Source: Aureliella helgolandensis (GTDB lineage: Bacteria > Planctomycetota > Planctomycetia > Pirellulales > Pirellulaceae). Taken from it: a DNA stretch of 64,000 nt. Below the pieces are notes generated by a model. It searched no databases, was not told the origin of the DNA, and worked only from the letters and a program-made list of their open reading frames with translations. The translations under genes were made by a program, and so were the position numbers. The stretch lies in NCBI RefSeq assembly GCF_007752135.1, contig NZ_CP036298.1:5952859-6016858 (forward strand). The letters run 5' to 3'. Position 1 is the stretch's first letter; every line of letters starts with the position of its first letter. This document shows, in pieces, positions 8,820 through 59,783 of this stretch.

Positions 8820-9147
8820 CCGTTAGCCAGCTCTCCCACCACACTGGCCGGCTTGCTGGCACGACATCCATCCGCCTTAGAATTTATTGTTTTAAGAGCG
8901 GTTCGAACTTCCCCTGAGGGTATTGCCCTCAATTGTCCGGCAACGACGATGAATCCGGGCCACCTCATGGGGTGCGTTATCCTAGCGGCGAATCCGGGCC
9001 TCTGCAGGTCGGCAGGTCTCGCCTTGCGTAACATGCTGCCCGTTGTTCGATCGGATCACGGTTCGACCGGAGCACGGGCAAATGCACACCAGCCCCGATT
9101 CGCGTACACTAGAGCTCATCGATGAACATCTCTTTGAGGCCTACCCA
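8820..9147. other. Intergenic region
   Basis: About 330 bases between two plus-strand genes. Two copies of GAATCCGGGCC occur 46 bases apart near 8952 and 8990. I see no RNA gene or clear promoter. Confidence 0.4.
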
Positions 9148-11274
9148 ATGCATGATCCAACTCCCCGTCCGAAGCCCCGTGAAATAGCCCCACGTCGCGT
9201 TGCCACTACGCAAATTGCCACTTCCGTGGTATTGCCCTGTTGCACCTGGCGGTCCCTCCACGTCTGTTGCCTGAGCATGATCTGGGCGCTCGGTCTATTC
9301 GGCGGCGTACCAACCTTTGGACAGACGCAATCCGACCTAGCAGCAGCCCTTCAACCGCTTGTCGATGCGCATGCGGGCGACGTGGCGGTAGCCGCTGCAA
9401 TCCTCGATAGTGATTTGAAAACGCGTATCAGCTGGAATTACCAAGGCGACCAAGTAATGCCGACGGCCAGTCTGATCAAGCTTCCGGTCATGATTGAAGC
9501 TTACCGACAAGCACAAGCCGGCGGGCTCTCGCTCGAGCATCTGATCGTGCTGCGGGAAGAGGACAAAGTTCCTGGATCGGGAATCCTCACCGAGCAATTC
9601 TCGGCGGGTACCTCACTCCCGTTAAACGACGCCATCCGATTGATGATGCGTTACTCGGACAATACCGCGACCAATTTAGTCCTCGACAGCATTGGCCTCG
9701 AATCGACGGCCAAGACAATGGCCGAACTGGGCTTTCCAGAAACTAGGATTCATTCGAAAGTTTTCCGACGCGACACTTCGATCGATTCGGACCGCAGCCA
9801 AAAATATGGCCTAGGCAGCACCACGGCTAACGAGACGGTCACTCTGCTCAGCCAGTTGGTTCGCGGTGAACTGGCGGATGAATCCTCTACCCAATCGATG
9901 CTTGATCACTTATTTGCCTGTGAAGCGACGAACGGCTTTCCCCGCGATTTGCCTGCAGGAACCCGGGTGGCTCACAAGACCGGCTCCGTAACACTCGCTC
10001 GCACCGAAGCTGGGATTATCGACTCGCCAGCCGGAAAGATCGTCCTGTGCGTACTCACCAACAACAACGAAGACAAGCGTTGGTCGGAGAACAATGCAGG
10101 TAACGTGCTATGCGCCAAGCTTGCTAAAGCAGCTTTCGATCTCGTCAACCCTGAGCCCGCAGACACTTCGGAGAGTTTCCCGCAGCAGCTTTCCGAGGGT
10201 TCGACCGGTGAACTGGTCGAAGCCCTTCAACGAACTCTCAACGCTAGAATTCAGAGCGACCTGGGCATCGACGGCGACTTCGGCCCTGCCACCGCAGCTG
10301 CAGTGAAAAAGTTTCAGACCAGTGCCAAGTTAAGCAACTCGGGAGTGGTCGACGCCCAGACCTGGCAAGCACTGGGAGAGATCCTAATGGTACCAGAACC
10401 GGTGGCTGCTCCCGAGCTGATCAATTCCGAGAAGCTTGCGGTGGCACCACCTCTGGATCCACTCGCACCTCCCCAGGTAACCGCCAAAGCCTTTGCCATT
10501 CTGGACCTTGCCACGGGTGAAGTTCTAGCAGAATTGAATGGTGACGAACCACTGCCCAACGCCAGCACCACAAAGCTGCTCACCGCTTACGTCGTACTAG
10601 ACTATGCACAGTCTCACCCTGAAGTCCTGCAAGAAACAGTCACTTTTTCGGAGCGGGCTGATCAAACGCTAGGCTCAACGTCAGGCGTCAAAGCGGGCGA
10701 GCAATTGCCTGTTTACGAATTGCTTTACGGCCTCATGCTTCCCAGCGGCAATGACGCTTCCGTCGCCTTGGCAGAACATTTTGGTGGCCGGCTAGCCAAT
10801 CCCAGCCAGCCTGAAGCCAACGCCGAAGAGGCCTACGATGCATTCATCGCTGCGATGAACGCCAAGGCCCAAACGCTGCACATGACGCACACCCATTTTG
10901 CCAATCCTCACGGCTTGCCCGCTGAAAAGCATCACAGTTCCGCAATTGACCTAGCCAAGTTGGCCAAGGCTGCACTCAAGCTGCCTGAAATGAGAAAGTA
11001 CGTCACTTGCAGGCAACGAGGATGCCAAGTCACCAGTCTGAATGGTTACTCGCGCAATATCCTATGGAAGAACACCAACCGCCTACTTGGGCAGGCTGGC
11101 TTTACCGGCCTCAAAACCGGCACGACCTCAGCCGCAGGTGCCTGTCTCGTGGCAAGTGGCGTGCGCGAAGAGCAAGCTCGCGTTGTCGTCGTGTTGGGTG
11201 CGGTATCCTCAGACGCCAGATACGTGGACGCCCGCAATCTCTTTGCGTGGTCGTGGAGAGATACAGCCCGCTAG
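9148..11274 (+). CDS. Fusion: class-A beta-lactamase-fold hydrolase + peptidoglycan-binding domain + D-Ala-D-Ala carboxypeptidase
   Basis: A 708-residue exported protein with two penicillin-binding-fold domains. After a hydrophobic segment (about residues 40-58), domain 1 (about 65-335) has SLIK (Ser108-Lys111), SDN (170-172) and KTG (277-279). It lacks the omega-loop E-x-x-L-N motif needed for beta-lactam hydrolysis, so a peptidase role is likelier than resistance. A peptidoglycan-binding domain (about 348-408, with GIDGDFGPAT) follows. Domain 2 (about 445-705) is S11 carboxypeptidase-like: STTK (Ser473-Lys476), SGN (533-535), KTG (656-658). The likely job is trimming of peptide stems in the periplasm. 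Start at ATG 9148 (GAGG upstream) is preferred to 9043, which would place 35 odd residues before the signal. Confidence 0.87.
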   Translation: MHDPTPRPKPREIAPRRVATTQIATSVVLPCCTWRSLHVCCLSMIWALGLFGGVPTFGQTQSDLAAALQPLVDAHAGDVAVAAAILDSDLKTRISWNYQGDQVMPTASLIKLPVMIEAYRQAQAGGLSLEHLIVLREEDKVPGSGILTEQFSAGTSLPLNDAIRLMMRYSDNTATNLVLDSIGLESTAKTMAELGFPETRIHSKVFRRDTSIDSDRSQKYGLGSTTANETVTLLSQLVRGELADESSTQSMLDHLFACEATNGFPRDLPAGTRVAHKTGSVTLARTEAGIIDSPAGKIVLCVLTNNNEDKRWSENNAGNVLCAKLAKAAFDLVNPEPADTSESFPQQLSEGSTGELVEALQRTLNARIQSDLGIDGDFGPATAAAVKKFQTSAKLSNSGVVDAQTWQALGEILMVPEPVAAPELINSEKLAVAPPLDPLAPPQVTAKAFAILDLATGEVLAELNGDEPLPNASTTKLLTAYVVLDYAQSHPEVLQETVTFSERADQTLGSTSGVKAGEQLPVYELLYGLMLPSGNDASVALAEHFGGRLANPSQPEANAEEAYDAFIAAMNAKAQTLHMTHTHFANPHGLPAEKHHSSAIDLAKLAKAALKLPEMRKYVTCRQRGCQVTSLNGYSRNILWKNTNRLLGQAGFTGLKTGTTSAAGACLVASGVREEQARVVVVLGAVSSDARYVDARNLFAWSWRDTAR

Positions 11275-29699: not shown

Positions 29700-30905
29700 T
29701 CATTCGCTTGCTGAGGAACGTTGGCTTAAATCTCTCTTCCACCTTGGATACTCGCTTTCGAGCAGCGCACGAGGCCAGCCACCGTACCAGGGTGTTCCGG
29801 TCCGTCGTTCGCGTTCAATCTCCGCCAATGCGTACTTTTTGATTCCATCGCGTCCCGCAAATACGGGACGATTGGTACCGATTTCATAATGGCGGGCCCA
29901 CAGCGGTTCCGCTTGGGAATCGTTCACCACCACGACATCAAAATCGGTATCGTGTCGCAAAAAGGACTCGGGAGTCGACGCAACCTTTTCGACGCGAATC
30001 CCTTTCAACGCACCCCGCTGCAGCCAGGCAACCGCAGCATCGACCGAGTGGACCAGTTCCGGTGAGGGATTCTGCTGAGCCATCAGGAAACGGGTAATAG
30101 CAGTCGTCTCCTGTGGACAGATGGACGCCAGTTCAAAAGTCCTCGCGGATCTAGGAGCGAACGTTTTCTCATCGTGCTGCTGACACCAACCGGTCAGCTC
30201 TCCCTCCGTCCGAATCTGGCAACGGAGAATGCACGTGATCCCTCGCTCGACAGCCTCTCTCGCCAGTTTGCGTCGATTCTGGTCGAGCCACTGAAAATGG
30301 GGTGCTGCGTGACCAGCATCCTGCAGGACTTTCAAAATACCGATCATGACACCGTCATTGAAGGTTACATGCGCATGATAGCTGTGCGGCTTGGGGAAGC
30401 GTTGTGGAAACCCTCCGTGGGAATATTGCGAGCGAAGGATGAAATCGATCCCCTTTTCGCATCCCAGCCGCCATTCCGGAACGTCAATTTGGTGGACCGC
30501 ACGCGCCAAATACTCAACTTGCGAAAACAGATTGTCGTTGTCGTAGGATGCATCTTCGCGGTTCCGTGTGCCCATCACCCGCGCACGTTGCTCGGGAGTT
30601 AACACCGCTGTCACGTCATAATCCTTGGGCCATCCTCCGTTAGCTCTTTGGAAGAGCAATATATTCTGAACAATCTCGGTAACTTGCGAGGCTTGGTAGG
30701 AGGGCTGACCCTCTTCAACATGGATGAAACGATTTTCGTCTCGTAGATTTCGCCAATGACTAATACAACTTCCAAAGGAATTCAGGGCAATCGGACGCAA
30801 TGCTTGCGTCTCAGGCTGAGCTCGGGCTATCGACATTCCAAGCCAGCTAACGCACACACATACGTGCACCACAACCAGTAGGATCTTAGAAAGTGAAAAT
30901 TTCAT
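29700..30905 (-). CDS. Exported pectate lyase, polysaccharide lyase family 10
   Basis: A 401-residue enzyme that cleaves polygalacturonate by beta-elimination. A signal peptide (MKFSLSKILLVVVHVCVCV to SIARAQ) directs export. PL10 features are readable in order: NGGWPKDYD, DNDNLFSQVEYLARA, GGFPQRFP, TFNDGVM, GWCQQHD, SARTFELASICP and WARHYEIGTNRPVFAGRDG with the YGGWPRALL end. The conserved Arg in RDG and the Asp residues of DND fit the catalytic and calcium-binding roles known for the family. Start at ATG 30905 gives a normal signal; the frame is open to 30971. The sulfatase cluster 3 kb away suggests a broader polysaccharide-degrading lifestyle. Confidence 0.9.
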   Translation of the reverse strand: MKFSLSKILLVVVHVCVCVSWLGMSIARAQPETQALRPIALNSFGSCISHWRNLRDENRFIHVEEGQPSYQASQVTEIVQNILLFQRANGGWPKDYDVTAVLTPEQRARVMGTRNREDASYDNDNLFSQVEYLARAVHQIDVPEWRLGCEKGIDFILRSQYSHGGFPQRFPKPHSYHAHVTFNDGVMIGILKVLQDAGHAAPHFQWLDQNRRKLAREAVERGITCILRCQIRTEGELTGWCQQHDEKTFAPRSARTFELASICPQETTAITRFLMAQQNPSPELVHSVDAAVAWLQRGALKGIRVEKVASTPESFLRHDTDFDVVVVNDSQAEPLWARHYEIGTNRPVFAGRDGIKKYALAEIERERRTGTPWYGGWPRALLESEYPRWKRDLSQRSSASE

Positions 30906-31770
30906 GGGACGGGCTTTCGTAGGATCGATGCAATCGCCCACTCGGACGAATTGAGGGTTGAAAAAGAGCACTGGCCGCTCGCTGATTTCATCACGCTTCG
31001 CATGATAACCGGTCTCCTAACGGGCGGTCGCTGCAACTTCCGCTTCACTGAGCAGCGGCCTCCAATCCCCTACAGTAACGCATGGCAGCAGCGCCCGCTC
31101 CTATTCTTGGCGCACGACTTCTTAACGCACTACGTTTGTGATTTATGAGAGCATCTGGAGCACACACGCCAAGTGCGGCAGGGCAACTCCCAACCAACAC
31201 GGAGTGGTATCCGCATTGTCCTTGCACACGCGACTGACATACTTGGTGGCTTGCTATTCCTAGGGGAGACAGGTTCTACAGGCAGACATGCATCGGGCCA
31301 CTCTGTCTAACTCGCCGCCACGCGGCGGATTGCGAATTCGGCAGCTGGAGAGCAAGGCATCGCCACCCCTCGTTCGGCCGGGTCCATGAAGCATCCTGCG
31401 ACGGCACAGCGGCCCATCCAGGACCGCTCCATGCAGCGTGCGTCGGTTTTGGATCATGCCGAAATCTCGCTGGGAATGCCCCAAATTAACTGGTATGGGA
31501 AAAAACTCCTAGCAAATTTAGAAAAGAACTTTAATCACCCCATGGGGACTACCGGTCAATCTGGCACCTACTCATCTGCCTCCCGACTCGCTAGGGACGA
31601 GGCTGGAAACGTCATTGAGTGCAATAGGTTGCACTTGACAACAGGCGGCGATTGTCATTTCCTGGGAGGGAACCAAGTTCTCTGCGGTGCCCAACACGGC
31701 GGGAGCTTTTGTGCTTGAACTTCCATTTTATGAAGGAGCTATTTTGTATTCTGAAGTCACCAATACCGGA
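30906..31770. other. Long spacer (865 bases) without credible gene
   Basis: A 110-codon frame at 31386-31718 has no recognisable sequence and is rejected. A 14-base string TACAGGCAGACATG near 31275 recurs near 33918. An AAGGAG ribosome-site-like sequence at 31734-31739 precedes a TTG that is in frame with the next small gene. Confidence 0.4.
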
Positions 31771-34031: not shown

Positions 34032-35660
34032 ATGCGTAACCTCCTCTCCCCGGCAATTCTCGGCCTTTGCACAGTTTGGAGCCTTTTGGCCCTCGCGGTC
34101 CCTCTCCGCGGAGCGGAGCCACTGCGGCCCAATATTGTAATTGTGCTGGTGGATGACATGGGATTTTCAGATCTAGGCTGCTTCGGCGGTGAGATTGAAA
34201 CGCCCCATCTCGACCGCCTCGCGGCCGAAGGACTGCGTTTCACGCAGTGCTACAATTCGGGGCGTTGCTGCCCGACACGGGCTAGCCTTGTCACCGGCTT
34301 GCACCCACACCAAGTGGGCATTGGACACATGACCGCTCCGCCGGAACAACCACTTGGAATCGAAGGCCCCTATCAAGGCTTCCTCAACGACAACTGTGCT
34401 ACGCTCGCCCAAGTGCTAGGGTCGGCGGGATATCACACCATGATGACGGGCAAATGGCATTTGGGAGTTGAAAGCAAGTCAACATGGCCGCTGCAACGTG
34501 GGTTTGATCGGTATTTTGGCGGGCTATCGGGAGCCTTCAACTACTTCGAACCCACGGGAAATCGCGGTTTGACCGACGGCAATGCCCCCACGACCTCCGA
34601 CGCTGACTTTTATGCCACCGACGACTTTACTGATGTGGCCTGCGACTACATCCGTCAGGCGACAGAGCAGGACGACCAGCCGTTTTTCTTGTACCTAGCC
34701 TACAACGCACCTCACTGGCCTCTGAACTCGAAGATCCCAGAGTTCGAAAAGTACAAGGGAAAATATTCTGCGGGTTGGGAAGCCGTGATGAAGGATCGGC
34801 TGGCCAAACAAAATGAACTTGGACTCTGGCAATCCCCTCCCACTCCCGCTCCGCATGTGGGCCCCGCCTGGGATTCTCTAGGCGCGCAACAACGTGAAGA
34901 CTTAGACTCTATCATGGCCGCCTACGCAGGTTGCATCGATTCCATCGACCAAAATATTGGCAAGCTGACGCGGCATTTGAGCGAACTTGGGGAGTTGGAT
35001 AACACGCTGATCCTCTTTCTGTCAGATAATGGTGCGTGCCAAGAGGGTGGAAAACTGGGTAGTGGAAACGAGCAGATGGTTCGCAATCCACCACCGGGCA
35101 CTGACGGTGTACGGCTAGGGCTAGCCTGGGCGAACGCCTGCAATACCCCCTTCCGCCTTTACAAACACTTTCTCCACGAGGGAGGAGCCTGCACCCCCCT
35201 GATTGCCCACTGGCCGGCCACCGTCGGTCCACAGCAACGCGGGAAATTCGTGCGGCAATACACGTATTTGCCGGACTTCATGGCGACCTGTATTGAACTC
35301 TCGGGGGCTGAATACCCTACCGATATTCCAGCATGCGAAGGACAATCATTTCTCCCACTGCTGCAGGGAATTGACCAGCCGATTCACGATGCCCCAATCT
35401 TCTGGGAGCATGAGGGCAATGCGGCCGTGCGTTGGGGAAAATGGAAATTGGTGCGAGAATACAAGAAGCCCTGGGAACTGTACGACCTCTCGACAGATCG
35501 CACCGAAATGAACAACCTCGCTGCATCCAACAATAAGAAGCGTCAGAAAATGATTGACATGTGGGAAGCTTGGGCGACGAAGAACCAAGTTTCCTTCCCC
35601 GAAAGGTTCAACATGTACAATTTCCTCAAACATCAACAAGAGAGTAAGAAAGCTGAGTAG
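34032..35660 (+). CDS. Exported arylsulfatase (type I, formylglycine)
   Basis: A 542-residue sulfatase of family S1. The signal peptide ends near LRGAEP. The calcium-site Asp pair is in VLVDDMGFSDLG (Asp41, Asp42), and the modification motif C-x-P-T-R is CPTRASLVTG with Cys80 as the residue converted to formylglycine. TGKWHLG near residue 137 and ILFLSDNGACQEGG supply further active-site residues, and the C-terminal domain ends with KWKLVREYKKPWELYDL. It cleaves sulfate esters outside the cytoplasm. First of three plus-strand genes (sulfatase, SGNH hydrolase, sulfatase). Confidence 0.93.
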   Translation: MRNLLSPAILGLCTVWSLLALAVPLRGAEPLRPNIVIVLVDDMGFSDLGCFGGEIETPHLDRLAAEGLRFTQCYNSGRCCPTRASLVTGLHPHQVGIGHMTAPPEQPLGIEGPYQGFLNDNCATLAQVLGSAGYHTMMTGKWHLGVESKSTWPLQRGFDRYFGGLSGAFNYFEPTGNRGLTDGNAPTTSDADFYATDDFTDVACDYIRQATEQDDQPFFLYLAYNAPHWPLNSKIPEFEKYKGKYSAGWEAVMKDRLAKQNELGLWQSPPTPAPHVGPAWDSLGAQQREDLDSIMAAYAGCIDSIDQNIGKLTRHLSELGELDNTLILFLSDNGACQEGGKLGSGNEQMVRNPPPGTDGVRLGLAWANACNTPFRLYKHFLHEGGACTPLIAHWPATVGPQQRGKFVRQYTYLPDFMATCIELSGAEYPTDIPACEGQSFLPLLQGIDQPIHDAPIFWEHEGNAAVRWGKWKLVREYKKPWELYDLSTDRTEMNNLAASNNKKRQKMIDMWEAWATKNQVSFPERFNMYNFLKHQQESKKAE

Positions 35661-35744
35661 CAGTTACTCGGGTTCCTCCATTTTTTTTGCGGGCTGCTCC
35701 GATAGCACTCGTCCCTCCAACTTCACTCGTTCCACAGGCCTACC

Positions 35745-36962
35745 ATGTTACCCCACCCATTTGCCATAATTCCACGAATCTTGCCTACGTGGACCTCGTT
35801 TCCTCGAGCATTCTCGGCTGCAAACAGCTGCCTGCGGACCGTGAGCATCGTGTCGGCGGCCCTGTTTAGTTCTGTTTGCGCTCAGGCTCAAGAGCCCGCA
35901 GTGGCCACGCTCGATCCCGAATTGGCAATCAATCGCGCCGCCGCAGACGGCCTGGATTGGCACGACGTCGAAGCTTGGGGAGTGGAGGGACGCATTCTTC
36001 CCGACCAAGCTCGGGCGCGATGGTTCGACCGCTTGCCACAATCTGCCGAGGCGTCCGTAACCAAGAACGTTTGGAACCTTAGCCGCGATAGTGCTGGCAT
36101 GATGGTTCGCTTCACGACTGATGCGACAGCAATCCATGTCCATTACAAACTACGCAAGGCCAACCTCGCCATGCCCCACATGCCCGCCACGGGGGTCAGC
36201 GGAGTCGATTTGTATGCGCGCGATACGGACGGTCAGTGGAAATGGGTGCAAGTGGCCAGACCCGGTTCCCAAGAAGTGAAGGCAGAGCTCATCAAGGGAA
36301 TGGCACCTGGGGAGCGCGAATACGCAGCGTATTTGCCACTCTACAACGGCGTGGAATTCCTGCAGATTGGCGTCCCACAGGATAGCAAGTTTGCGGGACA
36401 CGCGCCGCGCCCCAACCCCATTGTTTTCTACGGTACTAGTATTACGCACGGAGCCTGCGCAAGCCGTCCGGGCATGGTGCATACCGGGATCCTTGGCAGA
36501 CGCTTTGACAGCCCCATCGTAAATCTTGGTTTCTCCGGCAACGGCCGAATGGACAAGGCAGTGGGCGACTACCTTCTGCAGATCGACGCGTCGGTGTATG
36601 TCATCGATTGCTTACCGAACATGGGCCCCAATGATGTTGCGGCCAAGTGCGTACCGCTAGTAAAGCAGCTCCGGGCCGCCAAGCCCAATACGCCAATTGT
36701 ACTGGTCGAAGATCGTCGCAATACCAATGACTGGATACTTCCGGCTCGCCAAAAACACCACACCGAGAACCACGCTGCACTCAAAGCAGCCTATGCAAGT
36801 CTTCAAGCTGATGGAGTGGAAAAACTGTTCTATATCGAAGGGGACCATCTGTACGGGGATGACACCGAAGGTGCCACCGACGGCTCCCACGCCAGCGATC
36901 TTGGATTCATGCGTCAAGCCGACGTGTTTGAGCCAACGCTACGCGAGGCACTCGGGTTGTAG
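35745..36962 (+). CDS. Exported SGNH/GDSL hydrolase with N-terminal beta domain
   Basis: A 405-residue esterase. A long n-region precedes a signal segment ending CAQAQEP. The N-terminal beta-sandwich (about residues 65-225) contains WNLSRDSAGMMVRFTTD and LPLYNGVEFLQIG. The SGNH domain follows with block I GTSITHGACASRPG (nucleophile Ser), block II NLGFSGNG (Gly, Asn), and block V DGSHASDLGF (Asp-x-x-His). This domain pair is typical of carbohydrate esterases that remove acetyl groups from polysaccharides. Its position between two sulfatases suggests action on the same glycan. Start at ATG 35745; several later Met codons are not usable without losing the signal. Confidence 0.87.
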   Translation: MLPHPFAIIPRILPTWTSFPRAFSAANSCLRTVSIVSAALFSSVCAQAQEPAVATLDPELAINRAAADGLDWHDVEAWGVEGRILPDQARARWFDRLPQSAEASVTKNVWNLSRDSAGMMVRFTTDATAIHVHYKLRKANLAMPHMPATGVSGVDLYARDTDGQWKWVQVARPGSQEVKAELIKGMAPGEREYAAYLPLYNGVEFLQIGVPQDSKFAGHAPRPNPIVFYGTSITHGACASRPGMVHTGILGRRFDSPIVNLGFSGNGRMDKAVGDYLLQIDASVYVIDCLPNMGPNDVAAKCVPLVKQLRAAKPNTPIVLVEDRRNTNDWILPARQKHHTENHAALKAAYASLQADGVEKLFYIEGDHLYGDDTEGATDGSHASDLGFMRQADVFEPTLREALGL

Positions 36963-36978
36963 ACATCCACCCAACTAC

Positions 36979-38763
36979 ATGAATACATCGCAATTCCAGC
37001 CTGAGCGACCGCGCATTCAGGCTGGAATCCGTTGCCTGCGGCCTGCTTGCCGGCTTCCCACCTTAATTTACTTTGTCACCTCTGCATTGATTGAGAGCCA
37101 AGCCATCAACACGATACTCAAGCCTGCTTTACACTCCGCTGCAGTATGGATCGTCGCGCTGTCTTGCGGATTGATCCAAGCCTCTCTTCACGCCCAAGTG
37201 GAAACGACCTCCGCCGGACGCCCCAATATTGTCTTTGCGTTTGCCGATGACTTGGGACGCTATGCGAGTATCTATTCAGATCCATCGCGGCCCTCGCCCA
37301 ACGACGTAATCCATACTCCCAATTTCGACCAGATTGCAATGGCAGGAGTGTTGTTTCAAAACGCCTTGGTCAGCGTACCCTCCTGCACTCCCTCCCGAGC
37401 TGCCATCGTGTCTTGTCGCCATTTCTTCCGCAATGGCAGCCATTCACAGCTGCACCATCCTTGGGTTAAGGGTTTTCCCGATCCTTGGGATCAAGTGCGC
37501 GGCTTTCCCCTGATCCTGCAGGATGCGGGTTATCACATTGGATGGTCCTACAAGATGCATATTAGCGAGGACCGCATGGGCGGTAGCCAACGCAATTACA
37601 AAGCCCATGGCAGCCGATTCAACTCGTTTTCACAGAACGCCATGAAAGCGGACGATCCGGAAGCGGAGAAGGCAAAGCTGCTCGACGAAGTGCGACTCAA
37701 CTTCGGGGATTTCCTAGCCGATCGGCAGCCCGACCAACCGTTCTACTACTGGTTCAATCCCACCAACACGCACCGTGCATGGATTCAAGGGTCCGGTAAG
37801 AAGCTCTGGAATATTGATCCGGACGACCTGCTGGGAAAACTTCCAAGCTTCCTGCCCGACAATGCAACGGTACGGGAAGATTTCGCAGATTATCTGGGGG
37901 AAGCTCAAGCCTTTGATGCGGCTGTCGGTGTATTGCGAGAGGAGCTGATTGCCTGCGGCGAATGGGAGAATACCATTCTGGTCGTCAGTGGTGATCATGG
38001 TGCCCCCGGCTTCCCGCGTGGCAAATGCAACCTCTACGACTTCGGAGTCCAAGTTCCTCTAGCCATACACTGGCCCAAACACTTAGCTGCCGGACGACGC
38101 ATCGCCGCGCCAGTCAGCTTGATTGACCTGGGCCCCACTTTTCTGGAAGCCGCGGGATTAGAGCCCACTGCAGACATGGATGGGCAAAGTTTGATAACCG
38201 CCATGCTGCCGAGTACCGACACACCAGCTAGCGGCCTGAGGCAATACGCCATCGTCGGACGTGAAAACCACGTCGACCAAGCACGCCCTGGCGGGCTCCC
38301 CTATCCCATGCGCGCCATTCGCACCAGCCAGTACTTGTACATCATCAATTTTGCGCCCGATCGTTGGCCCGTGGCGGAACCACCTCTGTCCGCCCCACTT
38401 GCGGAAGACATGAAGAGTCGCGGTGGCTCTGCCTCGCGGCGAATGGATATCGACTATGGACCAACTCGAGATTTCTTCACCGAATTCGAGGGCAGCCAAT
38501 CGATCGCCAAGGAATGGGAGTTGGGGTTTGCGAAACGCCCGAAGTTTGAGTTGTATGATGTGCTGCAGGACCCAGATCAAGTCAACAATTTGGCCCATGC
38601 CGGCGAATTCCAAGAGTTGCGGCAGCAATTGCACACCCAGTTGATGAGCGAATTGCAGGCTGGGAACGACCCGCGTGTGATAGGAGGTGGTACCGCCTTC
38701 GATGCCCCTCCATACGCTCCTGGCGATCCGCAACGAGGCGTCATCGTCCCTCCCGCGGAATAG
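36979..38763 (+). CDS. Exported sulfatase, heparan N-sulfatase-like
   Basis: A 594-residue sulfatase. The signal region (about residues 50-73, ending SLHAQ) is preceded by a long polar n-region. Active-site motifs: FAFADDLGRYASIY (Asp90, Asp91) and SCTPSRAAIVSCRHFFRNG with Cys136 as the formylglycine site in C-T-P-S-R. Metal and sulfate residues occur in SYKMHISEDRMGG, NPTNTHRAW and VVSGDHGAPGFPRGK. The set resembles the S1_8 sulfamidase-type subfamily. The start at ATG 36979, 16 bases after the preceding stop, supports an operon; the frame is open upstream but overlaps the SGNH gene. Confidence 0.9.
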   Translation: MNTSQFQPERPRIQAGIRCLRPACRLPTLIYFVTSALIESQAINTILKPALHSAAVWIVALSCGLIQASLHAQVETTSAGRPNIVFAFADDLGRYASIYSDPSRPSPNDVIHTPNFDQIAMAGVLFQNALVSVPSCTPSRAAIVSCRHFFRNGSHSQLHHPWVKGFPDPWDQVRGFPLILQDAGYHIGWSYKMHISEDRMGGSQRNYKAHGSRFNSFSQNAMKADDPEAEKAKLLDEVRLNFGDFLADRQPDQPFYYWFNPTNTHRAWIQGSGKKLWNIDPDDLLGKLPSFLPDNATVREDFADYLGEAQAFDAAVGVLREELIACGEWENTILVVSGDHGAPGFPRGKCNLYDFGVQVPLAIHWPKHLAAGRRIAAPVSLIDLGPTFLEAAGLEPTADMDGQSLITAMLPSTDTPASGLRQYAIVGRENHVDQARPGGLPYPMRAIRTSQYLYIINFAPDRWPVAEPPLSAPLAEDMKSRGGSASRRMDIDYGPTRDFFTEFEGSQSIAKEWELGFAKRPKFELYDVLQDPDQVNNLAHAGEFQELRQQLHTQLMSELQAGNDPRVIGGGTAFDAPPYAPGDPQRGVIVPPAE

Positions 38764-44748: not shown

Positions 44749-44952
44749 CCGGGCTGTTGATTTAATCGCAATTTGAATTTCAATGCGGAGGTAGCATCCT
44801 TAATTGCCTTGTAGCGGAGTTTATCTTTCCTTGCTCTCCGGGCTGTTGATTTAATAGCGTCTTGAGTTTTAACGTGCAGGTAGCACCCCTAACCGCCCTG
44901 TAGTGGAGACCACCTGTCCTTGCTGACGCGGCGGGTTAATATTTCAACAGCC
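44749..44952. repeat. R2 element: one partial and one complete copy
   Basis: Partial unit 44749-44827 and complete unit about 44829-44952. The complete unit has 9-bp terminal inverted repeats GGCTGTTGA (44841-44849) and TCAACAGCC (44944-44952), 112 bp apart outer to outer. Shared blocks with the copies at 53.7 and 59.5 kb include CTTGCTGACGCGGCGGGTTA and GTAGCACCCC. No open reading frame; could be a MITE or structured RNA repeat. Confidence 0.75.
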
Positions 44953-53624: not shown

Positions 53625-53760
53625 GGCAACCACCCTTCCTTGCTCACCGGGCTGTTGATTTAAAAGCGTTTTGAGTTTTAACATGAAGCTGGCACCCTAA
53701 TTACCCGGTAGCGGCGACCACCTATCCTTGCTGACGCGGCGGGTTACTATTTCAACAGCT
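53625..53760. repeat. R2 element, copy near 53.7 kb
   Basis: Begins TGGCAACCACCCTTCCTTGC and shows GGCTGTTGA (53650-53658) and TCAACAGC (53752-53759) as terminal inverted repeats, with the shared inner blocks TTGAGTTTTAAC and CTTGCTGACGCGGCGGGTTA. Length and order of blocks match the copy at 44.8 kb. Confidence 0.75.
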
Positions 53761-53897
53761 CGTCACGCGGCAGGTTGCGATTTCAACCAGTCCACTATTC
53801 CAACCAGCCAGTGAGCCGAGGCCCATGTGACGGCTATGTGATGACTAGGCTGTCGATGTTCAGCGAGTCGCAATCTGGTAGGCTACATTCGGCACCT

Positions 53898-54518
53898 CTA
53901 GGACTCTGAGTTGCCATTGCCTCCCTCGAAAACTCGATCGCCGAGTTGCTGCCTTAAGCGACGCAAAACTCGCGAGCGATGTTGCCGGACTGTGGAGGCT
54001 GAAATCTCCAGTTCCGTGGCGACGACGGCTACCGGTTGACCATCGACAGTGCAACGCCAGAACGCATGCCACGTCTTGGGTTCAAACTCACTCTCAACCT
54101 GAGCCAATCCCCGGTGCAACAACTGGGTGAATTCGAATCGCTCTGAATCTTCGTCCTCGTCGAGCTCTTCGGGCAGTTGCTGCGAAGCATGCAGGGCCGT
54201 ACTGCCACCTTGGGCGGGTGGAAACCTGGCATCACGACGCTTGGCGTCGATAATCTTATGCCGCGTGATCGTCCACAGCCAAGCGCGAAAGCCTCCGCCA
54301 CTTTCCCTGGGACGATAGTCGTCGATCGACCGCGAAACGGAAAAGAACACCTCTTGCACCGCGTCATTGATCTCCGACTCGCCAACGGTCTGCTTGCGAC
54401 ACCAGAAGGCAACGAGCGGCGAATAGAGAGCTACCAAATCTTGCCAAGCTTGAGAGTCATTCGCGCGAATTCGAGAAATCAAGCTCAAACGTGTCGACGA
54501 GGAATCGGTAGCTGCCAT
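53898..54518 (-). CDS. ECF sigma factor, kinase-linked type
   Basis: A 206-residue RNA polymerase sigma factor. Region 2 has NDAVQEVFFSVSRSIDDYRP and FRAWLWTITRHKIIDAKRR; region 4 at the C-terminus has VVATELEISASTVRQHRSRVLRRL, the DNA-binding helix-turn-helix. Regions 1 and 3 of housekeeping sigma factors are missing, so this is the short extracytoplasmic-function type. It lies divergent from the giant Ser/Thr kinase, a pairing known for planctomycete ECF groups in which the kinase controls the sigma factor. A linker between regions is acidic and Gln-rich. ATG 54518. Confidence 0.9.
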   Translation of the reverse strand: MAATDSSSTRLSLISRIRANDSQAWQDLVALYSPLVAFWCRKQTVGESEINDAVQEVFFSVSRSIDDYRPRESGGGFRAWLWTITRHKIIDAKRRDARFPPAQGGSTALHASQQLPEELDEDEDSERFEFTQLLHRGLAQVESEFEPKTWHAFWRCTVDGQPVAVVATELEISASTVRQHRSRVLRRLRQQLGDRVFEGGNGNSES

Positions 54519-54733
54519 CTGTCATTCCATAAAAGCCATTGCGATCACTGAATGTTCTCTCCCTAATCCCCAGGCACTGCCGGAGAAGCAGAAAACAATA
54601 TAACATCCGCCCGCTTGGCAGCCGGTCGCACCTAATGCAGCCAGGGAGGCGTCTTTCAGCCTGGCTCCCAAAAATGCTGTCACACCGGTTTCGTTCTTGA
54701 GACTATGCCAACTCGACCTCCGTCAATGCTAAC

Positions 54734-57700
54734 ATGGTGCTCAAGGATTTACCAATCATGCAAGCCACACAATGCCCACCGCGTCATCGCCTCAAAGACT
54801 ACTTGGCTGGTAAGCTCGACCCAGAGGATTCGGACCTGCTCGAGCGGCATTTGCTCGCGTGCGCCGAATGTGAGCAGACGGCATCGGTAATCGATCATGA
54901 TCCCGATACGCTGGTCGAACTACTGCAGCTCGGTCCGGTTCCCGTGTCTAAGCAAAGTCCAGCCCCGGATCGACTTCAAGAGGATAGCTCTTTTGTTTTT
55001 CCTGCCATCCCTGGCGTTATTGCTTCGTACGAACTTTTAAAGCACCTCGGTGGCGGAGGCATGGGAGCGGTCTACTTGGCTCGCCACAAGAAGCTCGACA
55101 AACTGGTTGCCATCAAATTGCTCCCAGCACTCCCCGCGAGATTGCCTGAATTCGTAGCCAGATTCGAGCGAGAAATGCGTGCTGCCGGCCAGCTCGATCA
55201 CGGGTCCATCGTCCGTTCAACTGACGCGGGCGAGGAGCACGGCATCCATTTTTTGGTCATGGACGCCATCGATGGGCTCGACCTCAGCCGCATTGCGCGG
55301 GCCCTACATCAACTTTCAATCGCCGACGCGTGCGAGATGGTGCGTCAAGCAGCCTTGGGGTTGTCGCACGCGCACGAGAAAGGCATCGTGCATCGCGATA
55401 TCAAGCCCTCGAACCTGATGCTCGACGTCGATGGTCAAGTAAAAATTCTCGATTTTGGATTGGCCCAAGTCGGATTGTGGGATTCAGGGTCGGCTGAGAT
55501 CACCACAGTTGGACAACTGATGGGAACGCTCGACTATATGGCCCCCGAGCAAGCGGAACGAGGTGGTGCGGTCGACTACCGCGCCGATTTGTATTCGCTC
55601 GGAGCCACCTTGTTTCGATTGCTCACCGGACGCCCACCCTTGGCGGCGGCGCCCGATTTAACACCACTGGAAAAACTGCGATTGTTGTCTACTCACAAAG
55701 CTCCCAAGCTCGCCACGCTCCGCAGCGATGTGCCGCCCGAGCTGAGTAGACTACTCGACGAATTCCTATCACGTGAGCCTTCGGACCGTCCGGCTAGCGC
55801 CGCGCACGCGGCCGAGTTGTTGGAGCCTTTTTGCCACGGTTCCGACCTCAAGTCGATGTTGTCCCGCGCCTCAGCGCTGGCTGAAGAGGTCGCACCAGGC
55901 AAGCCACCAATGCCTGCGCTAATGCAGCGGGACATCACTCCGGAACCCGCGAGCCGAACTGCATCTCAATGGAAAAAATCTCGCCAGGCCGGTGGGGGAG
56001 GCCGCATCGTGACCTGGAGCTTGGTAGCTCTCTGCTTCGCGATGCTCTGGGGCGGTATCCTGTTTGTGTTGGAGACCTCCAAAGGGCAACTGGTCATCGA
56101 GTCCGAAGGTGCCGATGTTCAAGTTCAACTCGTCAAAGATGGCGAGGAGGCGAGTGAGCTGCATATTGAACCGGGTACGCAGACCACGCGACTGCGAGGC
56201 GGCAAGTACAGGATCGTCATCGATTCCCCCAGTAACAATTTTGTAGTCTCCAACCAGCAATTCACGATTCGCAATGGCGAGACCGTAGTGGCGAAAGTTA
56301 CGACGAAGCCGCCCGCGAGTACAGCACCAACTGCCGATGACTTCGCTGACGCACTGCATTCGAATGCTCCCGAGGACCCACGACTGAGCAGCGTTGTTTA
56401 CGAAGGCGATTCCCTCGATACCTGGCTCCGTCGACTCAAGTTCGAACGCAGCAGTGAGAAAATCAGCCAAGCGCTGGCTGCCATCACCGCCATGGCTGAC
56501 GAAAATGCCAGCGATTTGATCGAGCCCGTGATCGTTGAATTTCTAATGACCGCGGACGCAGAACTTGCTCACTTTAATGAAGCGACCAGGATTTTGAATC
56601 AATCTAGCGGTGGACGCTTTTTCGATAATGTGACGAAAGTGTTGACAAACTTCCAAACGAGCGAACGTACCGAGGAGTTTCTACAGGGTGCGCACCATTC
56701 GCTCTCTCACTGCGATGTGATGGGCGTCCCATCGCTCCGCGAATTCCTGGCCTGGGCATCGGATGCTCTGAATCGCAGCCCTACACAACAAACACTGCGA
56801 TCGGTGGTCAGTTCCACGCTCAAATCAATGCTGCAAGACGATGGGCCAGACCGTATTTTCCCGAAAGAATGCCAGCAGGCGGTTTTGGATCTACTAGTAG
56901 CGTGTCCGAGTCTCACCGACGAAGAGTTCTGGCTAGCGGAGAACGAAGGAACTATTGGCGATCGGCCATGGCACACACTGATGAGAGATGAAATTGTGCG
57001 ACGCGCTATCGCGGTCCTCGCTGACGAAGATGCCGAGAGTCAATTGGTGGTCCAAGCCGCCTTGGTTCTCAATTCAACGCGAGACTTTCACCCAAAGCTG
57101 AGCAGCAACGAACGCGTCCCATTGCTGGAAGCATTGGCAAGGCGATTGACACATGCAGCCAAAGAACTCGAACCCGCTCTTGCGGAGATCTCTGTCGCCA
57201 CAGCCAACATCGAGGACGCCTCTCCATTATTTTATGAACATGAGACGAATCTTGGCATTAAATATCAGGCTAAGAAGTGGAGCGTAAACCGGTCAATGGC
57301 ATTGCTTAGTATCGTTGGAAGTTTTGAATTGCAGAGCGAATTGCGAGCTTCCCTAACCTCGCTGCACGAATCATTGGCTTCACAAGTATTGTTCGGAGCC
57401 AGATATTGGAACTCACGTAGACCAGCCAACGATTGGAATCAGAATACAGAGCTTAGACTTGCGTTGGATAACATTAAAGACCGCAAGTTAGTGGTCTTGC
57501 AAACAACCTATATTCAAAGCGGGCTACTAATTGACAGAGAATTGAAGGACTTAGTGGCTCGCTTTGATCAGAAGAAAGCGGTGGATATTGCCGTCGAAGC
57601 CTACGGCTACCTGGACAAGCTAGAGCGTGAAGGGGCCAACAAGTGGTCCTCGCAAGACCGTTTTGGGTTGTATTCTGCACTAACCCCAGCCCAAGCGCAA

Positions 57701-59191
57701 CGGGCAATTCCCGTCCTCTCTAAAGTCTTGGGAAACGCGTCCCTAACCGAGGCTTTGGAAGAGCGGTTGTCGATGCTGTGGCGTGTCTCCGACGACGAGT
57801 TCTTTGTGCATTTCGCCCAAATCCTCAAAGCCGCGCCGGAGCCTAAACGCGGCCAATTGCTTGCAGTCGATTTTTCGACTCTGCGTGAGTTTGGTTGTAA
57901 GAATCCCGATTCCCTGAAGCCTCTACTCCACTGGGCCGACACCATCTTCGCTTCCCAACAAGAGACCGACATTGCGATTCAGCCAACCTTGGCCAACATG
58001 CTGCGGAGCCTCCTCCGCGATCGCAGCGAGTTGGTCGCGAGCCAGCACAATGACCGAAAGGATTTTGAAAAAGAAGCGGAACTCGTCAACGACGATTGCC
58101 AGAAACTCATTTTGAGCCACCTGGAAAAATACCCGCAGCTTACGGATCAAAACTTTTGGCTGGCCCAGCCGGTGTCCTATCGTTACCAATTTACCAATAA
58201 GAGCGCTACGCGAATGGACAAGCCGTTTCGAGCCGCCATGCTCACGCATGCGATTGCAACGCTGTCCTCCGAAGCCGAATCGCAAGTGGATCTTGACCAG
58301 CTCCGCGCCCATGCATTAATGGTAATTCGTTCGGTGGTTACTACTGCGGGCGATACATTGTCGCCAAGGCAAACGGAAGAGGTATTGCGTTTCCTAGCAA
58401 GAATCCTGCAAGACTCAGCCAGCGACCTGGTGCAGAGTTCCATCCTGAGAGAACAGTGGGGACCGTTTCGAGACTTGGTAGCACCCAAACTACCTTCGCT
58501 GCAAGACGTTGGAAGCTCAGCATCCCAATGCAATACCCTGATTGCATCTCTGAATCTCGTGGACGAATTGAACTTAGCTGGTGAGCTAGCCGGCCCACTA
58601 CAGACATTGTTTGCCGCGGCCGAAAAGCCTCGGATTTCGAACAATTTCTATCGGTCTCGCCAGAACCATTTGTTCGAGCGATTTGAAGAGAGCAGCCAGC
58701 TCTACTCGGAACTATACGTCCAAACCATCTACTTACTTTCCGGCAGACTGATCGGCCAGGACTATCAGGAGCTCCTCGCACGGCCAGACCGAATTCGAGC
58801 CGAGGATACCAGAATCAAACGGGAAGAAGCTGAGGCGCGACGACTCCTCGTGCAACCTCGCGACACCTTGGCAATCTACATCCCGGGACTCCTTCCCGCC
58901 GAAGGCTCTCCTCCCGTGCTTCAAGCTGGCACGTCCCAGCCAGTAACTGGATTTCCAGTACCGGTCACGGCGGAAGGAGAAATATCGCTACCGCTGCTCG
59001 AGCCGTTTACGGTGAAAGGTAAGGAGCCGAAAGAAGTTCGCGAATTGATTCTGCAGCTCTACGTTCGGAACGGGATTATGGAAGAGAAACGACTGAGTGG
59101 TACCACAGTTCAATTCTTGATGCGGGCGGACTCACCAACAGAAATCCGCAATGTCTCCGGTCAAACTCCAGCAACCGTTGAGCGTCCGTGA
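54734..59191 (+). CDS. Transmembrane Ser/Thr kinase with C-terminal polysaccharide-export-like domain
   Basis: A 1485-residue protein. N-terminal zinc-finger-like segment (Cys14, His39, Cys43, Cys46; anti-sigma-like). Kinase domain about 99-366: GGGGMG (106-111), Lys128, HRDIKPSN (from 220), DFG (240-242), APE (270-272). One transmembrane helix at about 425-446 is followed by a PEGA-like beta segment, then roughly 830 helical residues I do not recognise. Residues about 1372-1464 resemble the Poly_export domain of Wza-type outer-membrane proteins (DTLAIYIPG, GFPVPVTAEGEISLPLL, VKGKEPKEVRELI). Topology puts the kinase in the cytoplasm and this domain outside. ATG 54734; ATG 54758 is possible. 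The divergent ECF sigma factor is the likely partner. Confidence 0.88.
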   Translation: MVLKDLPIMQATQCPPRHRLKDYLAGKLDPEDSDLLERHLLACAECEQTASVIDHDPDTLVELLQLGPVPVSKQSPAPDRLQEDSSFVFPAIPGVIASYELLKHLGGGGMGAVYLARHKKLDKLVAIKLLPALPARLPEFVARFEREMRAAGQLDHGSIVRSTDAGEEHGIHFLVMDAIDGLDLSRIARALHQLSIADACEMVRQAALGLSHAHEKGIVHRDIKPSNLMLDVDGQVKILDFGLAQVGLWDSGSAEITTVGQLMGTLDYMAPEQAERGGAVDYRADLYSLGATLFRLLTGRPPLAAAPDLTPLEKLRLLSTHKAPKLATLRSDVPPELSRLLDEFLSREPSDRPASAAHAAELLEPFCHGSDLKSMLSRASALAEEVAPGKPPMPALMQRDITPEPASRTASQWKKSRQAGGGGRIVTWSLVALCFAMLWGGILFVLETSKGQLVIESEGADVQVQLVKDGEEASELHIEPGTQTTRLRGGKYRIVIDSPSNNFVVSNQQFTIRNGETVVAKVTTKPPASTAPTADDFADALHSNAPEDPRLSSVVYEGDSLDTWLRRLKFERSSEKISQALAAITAMADENASDLIEPVIVEFLMTADAELAHFNEATRILNQSSGGRFFDNVTKVLTNFQTSERTEEFLQGAHHSLSHCDVMGVPSLREFLAWASDALNRSPTQQTLRSVVSSTLKSMLQDDGPDRIFPKECQQAVLDLLVACPSLTDEEFWLAENEGTIGDRPWHTLMRDEIVRRAIAVLADEDAESQLVVQAALVLNSTRDFHPKLSSNERVPLLEALARRLTHAAKELEPALAEISVATANIEDASPLFYEHETNLGIKYQAKKWSVNRSMALLSIVGSFELQSELRASLTSLHESLASQVLFGARYWNSRRPANDWNQNTELRLALDNIKDRKLVVLQTTYIQSGLLIDRELKDLVARFDQKKAVDIAVEAYGYLDKLEREGANKWSSQDRFGLYSALTPAQAQRAIPVLSKVLGNASLTEALEERLSMLWRVSDDEFFVHFAQILKAAPEPKRGQLLAVDFSTLREFGCKNPDSLKPLLHWADTIFASQQETDIAIQPTLANMLRSLLRDRSELVASQHNDRKDFEKEAELVNDDCQKLILSHLEKYPQLTDQNFWLAQPVSYRYQFTNKSATRMDKPFRAAMLTHAIATLSSEAESQVDLDQLRAHALMVIRSVVTTAGDTLSPRQTEEVLRFLARILQDSASDLVQSSILREQWGPFRDLVAPKLPSLQDVGSSASQCNTLIASLNLVDELNLAGELAGPLQTLFAAAEKPRISNNFYRSRQNHLFERFEESSQLYSELYVQTIYLLSGRLIGQDYQELLARPDRIRAEDTRIKREEAEARRLLVQPRDTLAIYIPGLLPAEGSPPVLQAGTSQPVTGFPVPVTAEGEISLPLLEPFTVKGKEPKEVRELILQLYVRNGIMEEKRLSGTTVQFLMRADSPTEIRNVSGQTPATVERP

Positions 59192-59783
59192 GTCCGAGAC
59201 CCCGTTTAATGAGCTCGAAGTGCTCCCTCCCTTTTGCGGAAGCGTTGGACTCAAGACGGCTGGAGGAGGGCTCTCTCCGAGTGCGCGACTCCCCCTAAGG
59301 CAGAAGAAGGTTTATAAGAGTCTCGTTCTCAGCCACGGCCTGGGTTGATCGAAAAGTAGAACTTCCCATCGCAACCCACTGCCTGAGCAAGGCGCAGGTC
59401 ACATTCCCTCGCCCTACGACTTGTTACCAGGAGTGTCGTAGCTTTTGGCATGACGGCAACGTTCTCATTTCCCAGGTAATGGCAACAATACTTCCTTGCT
59501 CACCAGGCTATGGATTTAAATAGCGATTGGAATTTTAACGAGGAGGGAGCGTTCCCAATTGCCTTGTAGCCACAACCACCTTTGCTTGCTGACGCGGCGG
59601 GTTACTATTTTAACAGCTCGTCACGCAGGGGATTGCGCTTTTCACAAGCGGTCCCCCGTCAACTCGCGGTTGCCGTCAACGCAAACGAACCATGGAAAAA
59701 CCATGGCTCGTCGTTGGATTGCAAGCGAACAAGGGCCACTGCAAGCGTTTAACTTGCAGCTAACCCTCCGGAAAACCCTGCTG
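59192..59783. other. Convergent spacer with R2 element
   Basis: About 590 bases. R2 copy at 59476-59616; an AACCATGG, AAAAA, CCATGG hairpin near 59687-59708. No gene supported. Confidence 0.55.
59476..59616. repeat. R2 element, copy near 59.5 kb
   Basis: Begins AATGGCAACAATACTTCCTT and contains GGCTATGGATTTAAATAGCG, AATTTTAACGAGGAGGGAGC and CTTGCTGACGCGGCGGGTTA. The left inverted repeat is altered (GGCTATGGA) and the right reads TTAACAGC. More diverged than the other copies. Confidence 0.7.

Follow-up and report, generated by a model that had tools for sequence, protein, structure and literature searches.

A planctomycete Ser/Thr kinase with an anti-sigma-like zinc domain and a C-terminal Poly_export domain, encoded divergently from an ECF sigma factor gene

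What does a transmembrane Ser/Thr kinase sense when its outer end carries a domain of a polysaccharide exporter, and by what route would the signal reach the sigma factor encoded beside it? This question is raised by a gene of Aureliella helgolandensis (Planctomycetota; Pirellulaceae), located in a stretch of 64,000 nucleotides (contig NZ_CP036298.1, positions 5,952,859 to 6,016,858 of the forward strand; the source assembly is a single contig of 8.44 Mb) that we refer to as the window. Planctomycetes have many transmembrane Ser/Thr kinases and extracytoplasmic function (ECF) sigma factors. At this locus, the sensor can be recognised by its end as related to an exporter domain of defined structure, for which there is a natural candidate partner. 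With a candidate sigma factor, anti-sigma domain and promoter also in hand, both the input and the output of the pathway become testable. We read the open reading frame (ORF) 54734-59191 as a one-chain anti-sigma/kinase receptor with a periplasmic tip derived from an exporter subunit; the protein may switch genes on, following the state of the export machinery of the cell. The observations underlying this reading are the domain make-up of the protein, the kinship of the Poly_export (PES) domains of such kinases, a conserved divergent sigma gene and a conserved element upstream of the kinase gene.

Domain make-up of the kinase

One chain combines Pfam zf-HC2, Pkinase and Poly_export matches with a membrane helix that was read by eye. 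The features of the locus are:

54734-59191, + strand: kinase ORF, 1485 amino acids (aa), likely translation start at 54758 (Met9)
54773-54871, + strand: zinc-binding anti-sigma-like domain, C14-x24-H39-x3-C43-x2-C46 (Pfam zf-HC2 at residues 19-46)
55028-55798, + strand: Hanks-type Ser/Thr kinase domain, residues 99-355 (Pfam Pkinase, 153.5 bits)
56006-56071, + strand: single membrane helix, residues ~425-446, read by eye from the sequence
56081-56308, + strand: beta-rich domain next to the outer face of the membrane, residues 450-525, conserved across relatives
56378-58846, + strand: predicted alpha-helical solenoid, HEAT/ARM-like, residues ~549-1371 (AlphaFold model)
58838-59188, + strand: Poly_export (PES) domain, residues 1369-1443, followed by a C-terminal strand to ~1475
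53898-54518, - strand: gene for an ECF sigma factor of 206 aa, in divergent orientation to the kinase gene and 239 bases from Met9
54678-54695, + strand: conserved promoter-like element TGTCACACCGGTTTCGTT, 80 bases before the likely start Met9

A first-pass annotation of this DNA, made without database searches, had noticed a Poly_export-like C-terminus in addition to Ser/Thr kinase motifs and one transmembrane helix, and all three were recovered here. The C-terminus is a Poly_export domain. For the window protein itself, the score lies close to the Pfam cut-off of 28 bits, i.e., 27.3 bits in hmmscan and, above the cut-off, 31.7 bits in a six-frame genome search. The relatives settle the matter: seven of the ten family copies scanned (window, L039, L041, L042, L043, L047, L093, L094, L095 and L096; L and G numbers denote loci and genomes) exceed the gathering score in hmmscan (29.1-37.8 bits), the other three being below it (27.3, 24.4 and 22.3 bits); thus, the call is real. 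The AlphaFold model of residues 1360-1485, built from six sequences, has a mean pLDDT of 82.4 and a Wza-like fold. In a Foldseek search of the PDB, ranks 1-10 were all Wza-type exporters, including Wza (2w8h, 2j58) and the class-3 OPX protein WzaB (9n9a), with probabilities of 0.91-1.00 and TM by query of 0.43-0.51, at E values of 4e-3 to 0.14 (none <0.001); the next match had a probability of 0.09. A PDB search by sequence alone found no exporter for this domain.

We compared the ten kinase PES domains with those of 26 stand-alone planctomycete exporter (OPX) proteins that had been selected by >30 bits against the kinase profile, and found 13 near-invariant positions common to both sets and one consistent difference, Glu1470 in the kinases versus Val. 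The window protein thus shares the Poly_export domain, its predicted fold and these 13 residues with Wza, WzaB and planctomycete OPX proteins of ~450 aa (L001, L067), but it carries the domain at the C-terminus of a kinase and differs from the OPX type in two further respects. First, by definition the Poly_export domain of an OPX protein precedes one or more SLBB domains (PMC9603273; descriptions of published work here and below come from excerpts of the papers), whereas Pfam calls no SLBB in the window kinase and the chain ends 42 residues past the Poly_export match; SLBB is likewise uncalled in three of four planctomycete OPX proteins scanned. Second, the secretion signal or lipobox that is usual, if not universal, in OPX proteins is replaced by an N-terminus consisting of zf-HC2 and kinase, as read from the sequence and Pfam.

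The catalytic motifs that define a Hanks-type kinase are intact (K128, HRD 220, DFG 240, APE 270). Met9 is the likelier start, because a methionine is aligned at this place in 13 of 15 family members and six have no earlier in-frame start. By our reading, the membrane helix divides the cytoplasmic half from ~1040 outer residues. A structure prediction of the outer region, which the first-pass annotation had proposed, is covered by an AlphaFold model of residues 445-1485 (six sequences; pLDDT 73.8, pTM 0.48). In this model, residues 450-525 form strands at a pLDDT of only ~30-51, and residues ~549-1371 form successive helices with pLDDT mostly >70 and several stretches at 30-60. A Foldseek search of the PDB gave 107 matches at E values of up to 0.001, led by helical-repeat proteins (e.g., CAND1, karyopherins and AP2), with TM of 0.09-0.30 in the best 50 of the 107. 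The region is therefore predicted to be a HEAT-like, not a HEAT, solenoid.

The middle sequence is similar to that of the window protein in L039, L041, L042, L043, L093 and L094, and also in L040 and L095, which are separate contigs. It differs in L047, where there is a pilus-N-like match below threshold (19.4 bits versus a cut-off of 23), and in L096 there is almost nothing between the membrane and the PES domain. The PES domain thus keeps its C-terminal place while the preceding part varies. Two side observations concern such outer parts. In L047 (3521-6250, - strand), the sub-threshold T2SS/T3SS pilus-N match and a stretch that by eye resembles a secretin short domain precede the PES domain; this is possibly another pore-derived sensor combination. 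In L049 (2558-6196, + strand), a sub-threshold Poly_export match (26.5 bits versus 28) at residues 582-642 lies soon after the membrane-proximal domain, not at the C-terminus.

At the opposite end of the chain, the N-terminal zf-HC2 domain, absent from the first-pass annotation, scored 23.0 bits in hmmscan (cut-off 22.2) and 27.6 bits in the six-frame search. A zinc ligand pattern ending in H-x3-C-x2-C was found in 15 of 15 sequences, with Cys in place of His in L042; this count leaves out L017, L051, L052 and more distant kinases. Zinc-binding anti-sigma (ZAS) factors with zf-HC2 are of the ChrR/RsrA type. The kinase resembles them in having the C...H-x3-C-x2-C ligands at its cytoplasmic N-terminus; the difference is that here the zinc domain and an intact kinase form a single chain.

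The divergent sigma gene, the upstream element and the distribution of the fusion

The adjoining ECF sigma gene that the first-pass annotation had reported was confirmed by profile scores: Sigma70_r2 48.8 bits (cut-off 24), Sigma70_ECF 26.2 bits (21.1) and TIGR02937 80 bits (42.9). The product has regions 2 and 4 only, as defines an ECF sigma factor, with the two region-4 models at 22.9 and 21.8 bits, below their own cut-offs of 25.7 and 24.1. Co-occurrence with the kinase gene, which had been suggested as a check, holds widely: a homologous divergent sigma gene adjoins seven of the eight testable kinase+PES copies, the window included, and the relatives are 51-82% identical. The testable copies are the window, L039, L040 (the PES part of which is on another contig, L095), L042, L047, L093, L094 and L096; the count leaves out L041, with only 568 bases upstream, and L043 (in genome G006). 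A divergent sigma gene is also found beside the sister kinases L044, L045, L046 and L049, which have no C-terminal PES domain (48-49% sigma identity). Six genes flanking the pair in the window were also sought in the relatives (23 rows, or 20 distinct loci once three duplicates are removed); none was matched at E 1e-4, although in many of these loci the flank extends over only a few kb. It should be noted that the sister kinases L045, L046 and L048 end in Pfam EF-hands and L044 in a sequence that is EF-hand-like by eye, which suggests calcium-linked outer domains. A kinase of similar length in the own genome (L056, 5057-9310) lies directly behind a same-strand sigma gene and has an AhpC/TSA redoxin-like match at 1018-1134.

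Of the 16 family kinase genes compared, 15 carry the pattern TGTCAC[AG]C-N6-CG[AT][AT] upstream, at a distance of 55-224 bases from the start; the exception is L054, a distant paralogue. On the opposite strand the pattern occurs in none of the 16 upstream regions, and shuffling produced it in 6 of 8000 sequences. Since the pattern was drawn from the same regions and the genes are related, this is a measure of conservation and not independent evidence. The element persists where neighbouring bases have diverged. In five further genomes there were 44 hits versus 20 for the control, nine of them kinase-upstream copies; together with the own genome, ten of 51 hits are kinase-upstream copies. Six other hits are in the own genome, five within a same-strand ORF of 145-977 aa and one (L103) not, as read on the same strand; the short ORFs among them may not be genes. 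The usual ECF promoter spacing is 16-17 bases. Calling the element a promoter is a guess, because only 8 bases separate TGTCAC from CG. The simplest reading is that the sigma factor would drive its own anti-sigma/kinase gene through it.

With the C-terminal profile at E 1e-20, matches were obtained in 9 of 241 family genomes, at ten places in 2 of 68 genera. At eight of the places (seven genomes), PES domain and kinase share a contig, the reading of L096 being broken by a run of N; at one the kinase is on another contig (G014), and at one there is no kinase (G006). The latter (L043) consists of an ectodomain and a PES domain; its 14 kb contain neither a kinase nor a sigma match, and other genes lie upstream, so that the copy is either truncated or misassembled. 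In an earlier draw, 128 of 199 genomes had some match at E 1e-6; among the matches listed, most frames were of ~440-520 aa, and those read were OPX-like. No further kinase fusion was found in 296 genomes of the order (E 1e-8) or 392 of the phylum (E 1e-14). The phylum draw yielded frames of 633, 655 and 455 aa from two other genomes, the first two of which look like OPX lipoproteins, and four longer frames (620-757 aa) from the family and order draws had no kinase match. These draws reach only PES domains that resemble the profile; within that reach, the earlier impression of an unusual kinase-Poly_export fusion stands, with none added beyond the family. A limited check of open-licence PMC papers (titles and abstract starts) revealed no account of a Poly_export domain on a kinase. 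The main text of PMC11032199 contains neither "polysaccharide" nor "zinc", and those of PMC9603273 and PMC9601211 contain no word beginning with "planctomycet".

In a tree of PES domains, the ten kinase-borne domains lie on one side of a 100/99 branch and the 26 OPX domains on the other, which fits one recruitment; the tree is unrooted, and two of its rows, L096 and L041, are long. In a kinase-domain tree (23 rows), one 100/99 branch splits off nine PES kinases and four EF-hand kinases. Within this group, L047 and L096 do not fall among the other seven PES kinases but branch at an open fork shared with the EF-hand kinases, so either the EF-hand group lost the PES domain or the PES domain moved.

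Kinase-linked ECF sigma factors are already known in planctomycetes. ECF59, ECF61, ECF62 and ECF217 are kinase-linked groups with planctomycete members (table in PMC8999054), and planctomycete kinases show diversity in their periplasmic domains, with 307 kinase architectures reported (PMC11032199). The present pair is a variant of such pairs: an ECF sigma gene adjoins a Ser/Thr kinase gene, and the difference is in the kinase, which bears a Poly_export tip and, perhaps also as a distinction, zf-HC2.

Proposed mechanism and rival explanations

We propose a self-contained transmembrane switch, to which we give close to an even chance, on the lower side. It would comprise the following steps: (i) the zinc domain of the kinase would hold the divergently encoded sigma factor at the inner membrane, as homology and the conserved pairing suggest; (ii) the periplasmic solenoid and PES domain would dock on exporter (OPX) rings or on like PES domains; (iii) an altered outer contact would alter kinase activity; (iv) phosphorylation of the zinc domain, the sigma linker or both would free or activate the sigma factor; and (v) the sigma factor would transcribe the kinase gene via the TGTCAC[AG]C-N6-CG element, the conservation of which is observed, with feedback as the presumed function. 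Direct sequestration of the sigma factor is the simplest coupling, because the protein bears its own cytoplasmic zinc anti-sigma-like domain. In favour of the switch, the one copy with Cys for His among the zinc ligands (L042) is also the one with no sigma gene nearby. The first-pass annotation had the signal pass to the sigma factor through the kinase; the conserved sigma neighbour agrees with this, but the route probably involves more than the kinase alone.

As to the input, homology suggests that the outer part may sense an exported polysaccharide or its machinery. The domain at its end is, in Wza, part of an octameric exporter, so the candidate signals are exporter assembly, polymer occupation and receptor self-assembly, the last being the plainer case. 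A more specific version, in which the anti-sigma kinase inserts its exporter-derived PES domain into OPX rings and reports pore assembly or traffic to a dedicated sigma factor, appears decidedly unlikely to us; if true, it would be an envelope surveillance receptor made from a piece of the machine that it watches.

Several observations weigh against the proposed switch. With hmmscan, zf-HC2 exceeded the cut-off in only 3 of 13 N-termini (window, L039 and L047), was below it in seven (15.4-21.8 bits) and was unreported in L042, L049 and L093. L042 has no sigma gene within ~2.3 kb upstream. In the own genome, the upstream element has 7 hits versus 3 for the reversed control, which is near background. 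No polysaccharide synthesis or export gene was detected among the 28 window proteins scanned with Pfam, several window ORFs being outside the scan. An arm spanning the periplasm is not essential, because L096 is without the solenoid. Finally, the aspartate kept in the sigma factors is compatible with activation by phosphorylation, because EcfK keeps one acid yet is phospho-controlled.

This last point leads to the strongest rival, which we regard as doubtful but live. As in EcfP/EcfK-type systems, the kinase could phosphorylate the sigma factor and turn it on directly, the zinc domain being a mere tether that brings the sigma factor to the kinase. Ser/Thr kinases beside ECF43 sigma factors act in this way (PMC8999054, PMC13147305). 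In EcfP, the DxxD motif of region 2.2 is replaced by STTA, and phosphate supplies the charge (PMC8999054); the same replacement and phosphorylation scheme is described for ECF59, with planctomycete members (PMC8103513). EcfK retains one acid in this region (QATE) and is controlled by phosphorylation that includes the linker between the two domains (PMC13147305). The systems of Vibrio (EcfP/PknT) and Xanthomonas (EcfK/PknS) resemble the present one in that a kinase gene lies beside an ECF sigma gene, and PknS, too, is a membrane kinase; its periplasmic part, however, consists of TPRs and not of a solenoid and a PES domain. The linker is a possible target here as well, with GG[ST][ST]A in 11 of 12 sigma factors (GGSTA in the window). 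The remaining one, that of L045 (8484-9275), has GGDAA, i.e., a natural acid at the possible phosphosite. On the other hand, all 12 aligned sigma factors retain the final Asp of DxxD, which EcfP does not have, and six have an acid in the first place (the window sigma has EIND); the 12 do not include four distant sigma factors, in which the expression for region 2.2 did not match. The replacement of DxxD by uncharged residues with a phospho-Thr, which characterises ECF43, is thus not seen. Moreover, direct activation would not require the kinase to carry a zinc anti-sigma-like domain. We therefore prefer anti-sigma release over phospho-activation, though not by much.

The second rival concerns the outer end and is, in our estimate, unlikely without being far-fetched: the PES domain would have no contact with an exporter and would act as a ring-forming oligomeriser of the receptor, the solenoid binding the real ligand (protein or peptide). 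Solenoids usually bind proteins. Wza is an octamer (PMC9601211), the kinase PES domains stand apart from all 26 OPX domains compared, and the lack of export genes among the scanned window proteins also fits this rival. It is opposed by the retention of the PES domain where the solenoid is absent (L096) or replaced (L047), and by the 13 positions still common with OPX domains. The weakest rival, that the C-terminal domain has decayed since a gene fusion and no longer serves any function, could appeal to the three of ten copies below the Pfam cut-off but is very improbable, given 23 invariant columns among six copies and its presence in two genera behind different middle regions.

Other features of the window

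A dispersed repeat with the core TTGCTGACGCGGCGGGTTACTATTT flanks the sigma/kinase pair (53696-53790 and 59554-59648) and also occurs at 44920-44944. Its 25 bases have 117 copies in the genome with up to two mismatches, compared to 0 for the control, and its presence on both sides is no indication that the pair is a mobile unit. A neighbourhood link to polysaccharide synthesis or export was likewise rejected, as only ORF 54734-59191 has an exporter domain among the 28 proteins scanned. Genes for a pectic acid lyase (29700-30971) and for two sulfatases (34032-38763) lie 16-25 kb from the kinase gene, but we see no reason to tie them to it. A single ORF at 9043-11274 combines beta-lactamase-like, peptidoglycan-binding and D-Ala-D-Ala carboxypeptidase (S11) domains.

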